From Microbulbifer harenosus (GTDB taxonomy: Bacteria; Pseudomonadota; Gammaproteobacteria; Pseudomonadales; Cellvibrionaceae): DNA of 64,000 bases. Within the stretch, counting starts at the first letter, position 1, and every line of letters starts with the position of its first letter. The translations under genes were made by a program, and so were the position numbers. The stretch lies in assembly GCF_005771435.1 (NCBI RefSeq), contig NZ_VANI01000011.1:209730-273729 (forward strand), given 5' to 3'. Of this stretch, positions 2,271-64,000 are shown piece after piece. The notes below the pieces were generated by a model. The model was not told where the DNA came from, searched no databases, and was given only the letters and a program-made list of their open reading frames with translations.

Positions 2271-2975
2271 ATGTTGAAAGTAAGCATCTACCGTTACAAC
2301 CCGGAAACCGATTCTGCGCCCTACATGCAGGATTACGAGCTGGATACCCAGGGCAAGGACCTGATGGTGCTGGACGTACTGGAGCTGTTGAAGGCCCAGG
2401 ACCCGTCACTGGCATTCCGTCGCTCTTGCCGTGAGGGCGTGTGTGGTTCCGACGGTATGAACATTTCCGGCAAGAACGGTCTTGCCTGTATCATGCCGAT
2501 CTCCCAGGCGGCCCCCAAGGGCAAGCTGGTACTGCGTCCGCTGCCCGGGCTGCCGGTCATTCGCGACCTGGTGGTGGACATGGAGCAGTTCTACACCCAG
2601 TACAAGAAGATTGAACCTTACCTGCAGAACAGCACACCGGCTCCGGCCATTGAGCGTCTGCAGTCGCCGGAAGAGCGTGAAAAGCTGGATGGCCTGTACG
2701 AGTGTATTCTCTGTGCCTGCTGTTCCACTGCGTGTCCGTCTTTCTGGTGGAACCCCGACAAATTCATCGGTCCCGCGGGCCTGTTGCAGGCTTACCGCTT
2801 CCTGGCGGACAGCCGCGATACCGCCACCGATGAACGCCTCGGCAAACTGGATGACCCCTTCAGCGTATTCCGCTGCCACGGCATCCAGAATTGTGTGAAT
2901 GTGTGCCCGAAGGGTTTGAATCCCACCCGGGCCATTGGCCATATCCGCAATATGCTGATAACCCGCGCCGTATAG
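2271..2975 (+). CDS. sdhB: Succinate dehydrogenase iron-sulfur subunit
   Basis: A 234-residue electron-transfer subunit of complex II. Three cluster motifs are visible in order: the plant-type [2Fe-2S] set 'CREGVCGSDGMNISG' plus a later Cys, the [4Fe-4S] set 'CILCACCSTACP', and the [3Fe-4S] set 'CHGIQNCVNVCPKGLNP'. Together they form the wire from SdhA flavin to quinone. The upstream 'GGGAGCGGAAAG' supplies a ribosome-binding site for the ATG at 2271. It is the last gene before a 172-base gap that contains a strong hairpin ahead of sucA. Confidence 0.99.
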   Translation: MLKVSIYRYNPETDSAPYMQDYELDTQGKDLMVLDVLELLKAQDPSLAFRRSCREGVCGSDGMNISGKNGLACIMPISQAAPKGKLVLRPLPGLPVIRDLVVDMEQFYTQYKKIEPYLQNSTPAPAIERLQSPEEREKLDGLYECILCACCSTACPSFWWNPDKFIGPAGLLQAYRFLADSRDTATDERLGKLDDPFSVFRCHGIQNCVNVCPKGLNPTRAIGHIRNMLITRAV

Positions 2976-3044
2976 CGTGGGTTACCCCACCAAAAATAAT
3001 CACAATTAGGCCGACAGCAGCGCAGGTGTCAGGCCTATACGAAG

Positions 3045-3077
3045 AAGGGGAGGTGTCTTATCAGCACCTCCCCTTTT
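3045..3077 (+). terminator. Hairpin with T-tract between sdhB and sucA
   Basis: A perfect 9-bp stem GGGGAGGTG / CACCTCCCC with a 9-base loop, extended by AA on the left and TTTT on the right (an A-T extension of the stem that also serves as U-tract). This is the shape of a rho-independent terminator or attenuator. Because sucA follows on the same strand only 70 bases later, partial termination would lower suc expression relative to sdh. Confidence 0.8.
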
Positions 3078-3147
3078 GTGAGTGAAAAGACAGGAAAGAG
3101 CGGCGCGGAATTTAAAGGGTGCGCGTCGTCAATTGAGGTAGGCATTA

Positions 3148-5973
<2,826 letters not shown>

Positions 5974-60772: not shown

Positions 60773-61822
60773 TTACTCGCGGCTATCGGTTTTAATTGTT
60801 TGGCCACTGGCACTGCTCTGCTGCGCAAGGAGGACCAAGCGTATGTTGCAAAGAGCCTGTTCTGCGCTTACCGGGACTTCGCCGCCAGAAAGAACCGCCC
60901 GGGCCAATTGCTGGAAGTAGTGCTGGTAACCTCCGGTTTCAGTGGTGACCTGGGTCGTGCCGTTTGTCGTGTAAAGCTGGCCGTATTGCTCGGGAGCTTC
61001 ATGGGCCCAATTTCTAGTCACCGGCAACAGCCCGGCTTTCAGGCGGTCTTCCTGCGGGTCCAGGCCATACTTCACATAGCTGCCGGCCTCGCCCTGCACT
61101 TCAAAGCGCAGGTTTGGAGAGGCGCAGAAAGGGCTGCTGCGGAGTACCACCAATCGCTCCGGGTAGTGCAGGGTGAGATGGAAAAAGTCATCGACCTCGG
61201 CGTGTGGTCGCAGTGCTTTTACCTGCGCAGTGATCGCGGTCGGAGGACCAAACAGCTGCAGCGCCTGGTCTAGCAGGTGCGGCCCAAGATCGAACAGGAT
61301 ACCGCCGCCCTCAACGTTTGACTCGCGCCAGCGCTTGCGCACCTCGGGCCGGAAGCGATCGAAATGGCTTTCAAAGTAACGCACAGTGCCCAGGCGGCCA
61401 TCGTCAATCAGTTTCCGTACGGTCAGGAAGTCTCCATCCCAGCGCCGGTTGTGGTAAACACTCAGTACCCGCTGCTGTTTGCGGGCCAGCGCGATCAGCT
61501 CTTCGCCCTGTTCGACGCGGGTCACGAAGGGCTTTTCCAACACTACATGCTTGCCCTGCTGCAGCGCCAACTTGGCCAACGCAAAGTGTGCTTCGTTTGG
61601 TGCGGTGATGATCACCAGATCGGCATTACTTTCGGTCAGCAGCTTCTCGGCCTGTGTATAAACCTCTACACCCGGATGTTGTTGACGCACCACGTCCCCC
61701 TTGGACGTGCTGACCGCGGTGAACCGAAAGGGCGGCAGGTTCAGAATAAACGGCAAATGAAAGGTGGTGGCGGAGAAGCCGTAGCCGATGATGGCAGTTT
61801 TGATTTCGGCAGTTGTACTCAT
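60773..61822 (-). CDS. Gfo/Idh/MocA-family NAD(P)-dependent oxidoreductase
   Basis: A 349-residue enzyme. The Rossmann fold start is 'IKTAIIGYGFSATTFHLPFI', then 'VVLEKPFVTRVEQGEEL' with the catalytic-type Lys in EKP, and 'GGGILFDLGPHLLDQALQLF' with the conserved Asp-His. Substrates are usually sugars or inositols; none can be assigned. No neighbour suggests a pathway. The ATG at 61822 gives the normal length. Confidence 0.94.
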   Translation of the reverse strand: MSTTAEIKTAIIGYGFSATTFHLPFILNLPPFRFTAVSTSKGDVVRQQHPGVEVYTQAEKLLTESNADLVIITAPNEAHFALAKLALQQGKHVVLEKPFVTRVEQGEELIALARKQQRVLSVYHNRRWDGDFLTVRKLIDDGRLGTVRYFESHFDRFRPEVRKRWRESNVEGGGILFDLGPHLLDQALQLFGPPTAITAQVKALRPHAEVDDFFHLTLHYPERLVVLRSSPFCASPNLRFEVQGEAGSYVKYGLDPQEDRLKAGLLPVTRNWAHEAPEQYGQLYTTNGTTQVTTETGGYQHYFQQLARAVLSGGEVPVSAEQALCNIRLVLLAQQSSASGQTIKTDSRE

Positions 61823-62565: not shown

Positions 62566-63823
62566 TTATATGCCGAACGGCCAGGTCTCTGGTGGCTCCT
62601 GCTGGTCCCAGCCCTCGGTGAGATCCAGAGGTTCGAGCGCGGTGGTTTCATCCAGGTGAAATAGCACATCGAACTGGTCGCGGATATCTACGTAAAAATA
62701 GTGGCTCAGCCGTTCCGTTTCCGGCCGATAGATAACGCCGATGGCCCGCTCCAGCAGCGGCTCGCGCAGGGCGTCGCCCTGCAACGGGCTCATATCGAGA
62801 TAAAAACGGCCGAGCCCGCTCTGATGGAACAGTGCCTCGGCACTGCCTTCCAGTGCTGGCCGCACCCAGCGATGGTCAGCAGTATCACCCCACTCTTGAG
62901 CCGCAGTGACATGTCCTGTGTAGGTGGTGAATCCTACCAGTAATGCCTCGCCAGCAGTTTTTTCACGCACCAATTGACCGACATTGAGTTCCCCGCGTTG
63001 CACCGATTCCGTGGCTCGCGCATCACCCAGGTGCGAGTTGTGCGCCCACACCGCGATGCGCGCCGGTCGTCCTCGCTGCCGCTCGATGTGCCGTCGCAGC
63101 GCCAGTAAAGTGTCTACCATATGTTCGTCACGCAGGTTCCAGGTGTTCACACGGGTGGAAAACATACCGCGGTAGTAGGCCTCCGCATGCTGCACCACAT
63201 GCGCATTGCGCTCCGCATAGAACTGCTCGTCTTCGGCCAGGATACCGTCCTTTTGCAGCCACTGGCTGCGGGCCTGCATCATCTCCAGCACCTGCTCCAC
63301 CGCCTTGTGCTGGCAGGATTCACTGATGCCCATTGCGGCGGTATAGCCGTAGCGTTGTGGGTCGCCGTGGTGATTCATGCACGCATAGCGCTCGCGCGCG
63401 CGTCCCGCGGCTTCGGGATCGACCTGGTCGAGATAGGACACCACGGCGTCGGCCGAGCGGTACATACTGTACAAATCCATCCCGTAAACACCGGTCTGTT
63501 GCTCTCTGGGTCGCTGGGAATTCCACTCATGCAGCCATTGGATAAATGACTCCATCACCGTATTACGCCACATCCACAGCGGAAAGCGCTCGAAATCTCC
63601 CAGAGCTTCCCCCGCGCTGGCGTCGCCGCCCAGCCCGCGCACAAAGCGGTTGATGCGGTAGACATCGGGCCAGTCCCCCTCAACGACTACAGCGTCGATA
63701 CCCTGTTCCTCGATCATACGTCGGGTGATTTCGGCGCGGGCCGTGTAAAAGTCATGGGTGCCGTGGCTGGCCTCACCCAGAAGTATGAACCGGCGACTGG
63801 CGGCCTTTGCGAGCAGTGCATCG
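62566..63823 (-). pseudogene. Erythromycin-esterase-like hydrolase, 5' end cut off by an IS66-family element
   Basis: Homology begins at codons next to the IS end with 'RRFILLGEASHGTHDFYTAR' and runs on through 'EEQGIDAVVVEGDWPDVYRI', 'VYGMDLYSMYRSADAVVSYL' and 'IAVWAHNSHLGDARATESV' to the natural stop. The usual first 20-40 residues and start codon are missing. The interruption is exactly where the IS end GTAAGCG begins (63824). From the ATG at 63717 a shortened 383-residue protein could be made, but it would lack the first active-site His and Glu (GEASHG), so it is probably inactive. Confidence 0.88.
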
Positions 63824-64000
63824 GTAAGCGCCGTTAAATCGACACACTTCCCCTAACCATACTGAGCCAAATTTTTTGAAACAGGCTTCAAGGGCACATT
63901 CCACGGCAGAAGGGCTTCGAGCTTCTCCAGCGTGTCGGCCTCACCGATTCGGTCCAGTACATAGTGGATGTAGGCTGAGGGCTCCAACTGATTGGCCTTG
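63824..64000 (-). mobile_element. IS66-family insertion sequence, right end (partial)
   Basis: The end starts GTAAGCGCCGTTAAATCGAC, matching the GTAAGCG start typical of IS66-family terminal inverted repeats. A transposase C-terminus follows at 63853. The flanking 8 bases GTGCATCG (63816-63823) are the expected target duplication; the other copy lies outside the window. Confidence 0.85.
63853..64000 (-). CDS. IS66-family transposase TnpC, C-terminal part
   Basis: The last 48 codons read 'ANQLEPSAYIHYVLDRIGEA', then DTLEKLEALLPWNVPLKP and a TAG stop. The 'A(N/G)xLEPxAY' and 'ALLPWN' motifs are the end of IS66 DDE transposases. The catalytic core lies past the edge of the window. The stop is 29 bases from the IS end. 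Confidence 0.9.
   Translation of the reverse strand, partial: KANQLEPSAYIHYVLDRIGEADTLEKLEALLPWNVPLKPVSKNLAQYG

Follow-up and report, generated by a model that had tools for sequence, protein, structure and literature searches.

Insertion sequences of the IS66 family typically carry terminal inverted repeats of the GTAA type. Target-site duplications of 8 bp are given for two IS66 elements in the available part of their description (PMC3281130), where the Paracoccus elements ISPpa5a and ISPpa7 measure 2829 and 2731 bp. In EreC, which belongs with EreA, EreB, EreD and the Bacillus cereus proteins of structures 3b55/2rad and 2qgm to the PF05139 family, catalytic roles are assigned to E47, H50, E78 and H289 in the accessible text of PMC7979712. 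Among the matches listed in a literature search, no title or abstract start dealt with IS66 in Microbulbifer or with the disruption of an erythromycin-esterase gene by an IS66 element; IS66 is touched on in a general way by one Microbulbifer paper (PMC12388028).

In Microbulbifer harenosus, an IS66-family insertion sequence (IS) almost certainly lies in codon 25 of a 443-codon erythromycin-esterase-like gene, splitting the start and the first predicted helix from the core, and the gene was likely inactivated recently. The window, by which we mean the whole stretch of 64,000 nucleotides analysed (C2:209730-273729), ends with contig C2, 177 bp into the element. The features at this edge, and their counterpart on contig C22, are:

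62566..63823, minus strand: PF05139 gene remnant; of the uninterrupted gene it keeps the third base of codon 25 and all of codons 26-443
62566-62568, minus strand: TAA stop of the remnant
63715..63717, minus strand: earliest in-frame ATG in the remnant, at residue 61, 3' of the GEASHG motif
63760-63777, minus strand: GEASHG motif at residues 41-46, in which Glu42 and His45 are predicted to be catalytic (from the analogous E47 and H50 of EreC, PMC7979712)
63816..63823, no strand: first copy of the 8-bp target-site duplication GTGCATCG
63824..64000, minus strand: right end of the IS66-family element, inverted repeat GTAAGCGCC..., truncated by the contig end; 177 bp of an expected ~2.1 kb, a size taken by analogy with a 2146-bp relative in genome G023
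63824..63852, minus strand: open in-frame linker from the tnpC stop to the remnant; ten codons, base 63823 completing the last; no ATG, GTG or TTG
63853..63999, minus strand: C-terminal 48 codons of tnpC and TAG stop (63853-63855); PF13817, 42.1 bits, cut-off 30
63907, minus strand: single base separating this IS right end from the other four in the genome; silent in TnpC
C22:94-101 (L021): second copy of the 8-bp duplication GTGCATCG

The remnant and its enzyme family

A Pfam profile search matched PF05139 to the remnant frame (62566-63822) with 397 bits against a cut-off of 26.4, covering the profile from 1 to 358 of 358. The earlier note had read from the letters a clean esterase frame up to 63823, a GEASHG motif retained without a start codon, and an IS66-type end followed by a transposase C-terminus on the esterase strand, and all of this was borne out: the minus-strand frame is open from its TAA up to 63823, with neither a stop nor a frameshift in 418 codons, and the IS starts at 63824; a search in frame 5' of residue 61 found no ATG, GTG or TTG between the tnpC stop and the ATG at 63717; and PF13817 scores above its cut-off at 63853-63999. 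No PF05139 match besides the remnant was found in the M. harenosus genome, which is listed as 100% complete with 0.05% contamination.

The motifs of the catalytic residues, GEASHG, EGDW and WAHNSH, are present, and E42, H45, E73 and H286, invariant in 30 homologues, lie in motifs kept in the remnant; by motif, they would correspond to the four catalytic EreC residues in that order. The predicted fold of the homologue P0001 best matches 3b55 and 2qgm (TM 0.76), with EreC next (6xcs/6xcq, TM 0.64/0.66). Thus the whole Pfam domain, the motifs and the predicted Ere fold are shared with the PF05139 family, whereas identity to the solved structures is only 13-17%, the gene comes from a marine genus and is broken, and the curated EreB model (NCBIfam NF000209) is far from reached (31.1 bits, cut-off 750). 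On the sequence evidence "erythromycin esterase" is a family name only, and nothing here points to macrolide action.

The element and the missing 5' end

The 177 bp at 63824-64000 recur at four other sites in the genome (contigs C67, C53, C16 and C1) at 99% identity, with matches starting exactly at 63824, and each of these contigs ends after 177 bp of the right end. Left ends of 93 bp, identical in all five copies, are found at ends of C42, C22 and C18 and at both ends of C5. The genome holds five copies of the element, and the assembly is broken inside every one. The interior, sought in the 67 contigs with the PF03050 profile and with the G023 element as a DNA query, was absent, the DNA query matching the five right ends only, as is expected of a collapsed repeat. 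The sole PF03050 match of the assembly (C9:113151-113996, L011/L023) is a transposase with a 522-codon frame and is apparently part of another IS66 element; C9 matches neither end of the IS in the window nor the interior of the G023 element. At L019 1499-1516 (C21:2422-2439), 18 bases match the IS right end exactly but stand alone, the rest of the element being absent; they may be a relic or the terminus of a related IS.

Both ends of the element begin GTAAGCGCC, and 17 of their first 30 bases agree. An 8-bp target duplication accompanies all five copies and also the complete relative in G023 (L133), which is 86% identical over the right end, is flanked on either side by TTATCACT, and encodes a 100-aa ORF without a Pfam match at the tnpA position, a PF05717 TnpB, and a TnpC with PF03050 and PF13817. 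As far as the available description of ISPpa5a and ISPpa7 extends, a TnpC with DDE_Tnp_IS66_C, inverted repeats of the GTAAGCG type and 8-bp duplications are shared with those elements, and nothing of note sets the part of the element read in M. harenosus apart from them; the complete G023 relative measures 2146 bp.

The octamers beside the five right ends are GTGCATCG, AGTCCGCA, AATACAGC, ACTGAAAT and CATTCCTC, and each also stands beside exactly one of the five left ends, giving the pairs C2-C22, C67-C5, C1-C42, C53-C5 and C16-C18. Judged from these sequences, such a one-to-one pairing of five with five is far beyond chance. The 15-mer composed of IS left end and octamer has one exact match in 4.67 Mb and matches in five places when up to two mismatches are allowed (seven for a backwards control), and GTGCATCG, which occurs 185 times in the whole genome (96 + 89), lies directly beside an IS left end once only. 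The C67-C5 pair serves as a control in which no octamers are used: the end of C67 carries a reverse transcriptase frame together with group II intron domains, and the sequence resumes on C5 with the maturase domain and a further match to group II introns, so that the reverse transcriptase/maturase parts and the RNA domains of one intron are united and the pair is correct. Duplications of 8 bp are therefore able to rejoin contigs broken at IS copies. The copy at this junction (L007 end, C67; L136 start, C5) lies inside the reverse transcriptase/maturase gene of the intron, and another (L008 end, C1; L134 end, C42) interrupts a gene whose C1 part places it in the PF00144 beta-lactamase/serine hydrolase family.

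On C22 (4645 bp) the IS left end occupies positions 1-93 and is followed, after the octamer, by the 5' part of a gene on the minus strand, comprising an ATG at 173-175 with a ribosome-binding-site-like GGGGA upstream, 24 complete codons counted from that ATG, and two bases of the 25th. The rejoined gene has 25 + 418 = 443 codons; seven of the eight closest homologues are 443 aa long and one is 441, and the intact 443-aa homologues include P0001 (89% identity) and P0003 (75%). The earlier note had suggested extending the sequence to find the other IS end, a second GTGCATCG and the missing 5' codons, all of which are on C22; it would have abandoned its reading if the esterase N-terminus were absent beyond the IS or if no repeat partner existed, and C22 carries both. 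The C2-C22 link is drawn from the octamer, frame continuity and synteny, with no single continuous contig running across the element.

That the assembly breaks inside all five copies gives room for the view that the halves are not of one gene, the IS ends coming from different copies or from an IS-mediated rearrangement. Against this stand the five right ends, each with exactly one left end bearing the same octamer, and the codon phase, the gene length and the deaminase neighbour, which all agree; on these grounds a wrong pairing of IS ends was rejected and is considered extremely improbable. We give just as little credence to an assembly artefact at the junction that would leave the gene whole in the cell. 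The window edge is a contig end, as an artefact might produce, but the IS end is exact, the octamer stands on both sides, and the genome holds no second PF05139 match; this candidate was likewise rejected. The preferred reading remains that of one gene interrupted at codon 25.

Age of the insertion and fate of the product

Against four intact orthologues the remnant shows dN/dS values of 0.058, 0.065, 0.074 and 0.082, and the six pairs among the intact orthologues themselves give 0.060-0.093. Codon changes private to the remnant number 28 synonymous and 3 non-synonymous, compared with 12:2, 18:3, 31:1 and 19.5:6.5 in the intact genes; a three-way count of private changes gives 51:9 for the remnant and 46:7 and 51:20 for intact genes; and ten residues are private to the remnant, compared with 4, 12, 5 and 8 in the intact genes. 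Relaxed selection on the remnant was thus not found in either dN/dS or private changes, in a comparison whose power is limited by a synonymous distance to the nearest relative of already 0.58 and which dates the insertion no finer than late relative to species divergence. The IS copies are near-identical, with one silent difference in the 177-bp right end and none in the 93-bp left end, and neither end gave a match in the five nearest relatives, while the same queries did match M. harenosus. The remaining four right ends do not differ among themselves, which makes the copy in the window the odd one of five, and it need not be the youngest.

Since the frame is undecayed and its dN/dS equals that of intact relatives, the insertion is recent when measured against species divergence, and it most likely happened in the M. 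harenosus lineage, late relative to that divergence. Where the earlier note spoke of a recent inactivation, the word "recent" is upheld by the intact frame, the dN/dS values, the near-identical IS copies and the absence of the IS in five relatives; "inactivation" is something we infer only. In the predicted model of P0001 (mean pLDDT 89), helices at residues 4-14 and 22-32 precede a first strand (37-42) that runs into GEASHG. Mapped on this model, the cut at residue 25 costs the protein its first predicted helix and part of the second and leaves the predicted catalytic core in place; in the 30 homologues the invariant residues of the lost part are L18 and D24. The element inserted at codon 25, with the 8-bp GTGCATCG duplicated on both sides; transcription from the native promoter would then be ended or uncoupled within the IS, and ribosomes would be left without a standard start for the remnant, yielding no working esterase. 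As the first standard start (ATG 63717, residue 61) comes after GEASHG, the interrupted gene most likely gives no active esterase product. The predicted catalytic residues are still present, and weak starts or read-through of the tnpC stop are possible.

Such routes would amount to a re-wiring of the gene, either as a latent transposase-esterase fusion made from tnpC by read-through of its TAG or as a core translated from a non-standard start, which we regard as improbable, albeit somewhat less so than a faulty junction. The tnpC TAG (63853-63855) and the remnant share strand and reading frame, only ten sense codons lie between them, the predicted catalytic core is whole, and selection on the remnant is not visibly relaxed. 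A young pseudogene, however, accounts for the selection result equally well, the linker and the frame before residue 61 lack ATG, GTG and TTG, and a phase match would arise by chance in one case out of three. At the other four IS copies the outward frame runs for 12-22 codons beyond the TAG before it closes, so the in-frame position is no built-in property of the element and is taken as chance here. A scan of window positions 63500-64000, covering sigma-70-type consensus promoters and only 177 bp of the IS, found none where 0.3 would be expected by chance, and the same type of consensus had no match in C22:1-500, a region with two terminator-like matches (0.7 expected). With no promoter match in the IS right end, a TnpC-esterase fusion product is unproven and unlikely. 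The earlier note had asked whether a promoter inside the IS drives a fusion, and this question is now narrowed to a frame shared across one TAG, with no start in the linker and no promoter in the 177-bp end. Simple interruption thus stays the favoured account.

The locus in related genomes

The empty site that the earlier note had hoped to see in related strains was found in Microbulbifer mangrovi DD-13 (G018/L024), where the octamer CGATGCAC occurs once and uninterrupted; the other four relatives compared (G021, G016, G037 and G005) depart from that octamer at one or two positions, and in all five the ATG of the esterase gene lies 75 bases before the site. The insertion, the duplication, both gene halves and the empty site are all visible, which fully brackets what is probably a gene loss in progress. 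It is an ordinary event, and one that does not change the view of IS66 elements or Ere enzymes.

A PF05139 match is present in 20 of the 48 genomes of the genus, M. harenosus included, and spans the whole profile in 18; of the 17 besides M. harenosus, ten are 70-93% and seven 37-41% identical to the remnant. A close relative has lost the same gene otherwise, by an internal deletion: the G005 orthologue (L140, G005:C5 9948-10498; 87% identity over remnant residues 1-136) lacks ~0.7 kb inside the gene, out of frame. Of the six genomes in the closest group (at least 86% identity), two, M. harenosus and G005, thus have copies broken by different events, which suggests that the Ere-like enzyme is dispensable for some Microbulbifer.

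The deaminase gene adjoining the 5' side of the esterase on C22 is also upstream of the esterase in the nearest relative, G021 (92.6% identity), with 82% identity. The four remaining C22 proteins that were compared with seven relative loci gave no hit there at E <= 1e-5; the beta-lactamase, FMN reductase and GNAT acetyltransferase described next had none in these loci. Upstream of the split gene, C22 carries a class D beta-lactamase gene (L021 1837-2619, minus strand; NF012161, 304 bits, cut-off 250), most like the OXA-50-like model yet under the cut-off of that model, and FMN reductase and GNAT acetyltransferase genes at 2666-3250 and 3580-4194. About 60 bp of C22 (L021 1018-1080), flanked by the deaminase gene and a TonB-C gene, resemble the start of the oxidoreductase gene at 60773-61822 of the window, and in G021 an oxidoreductase gene lies on that same side of the deaminase, which indicates that the region has been rearranged.
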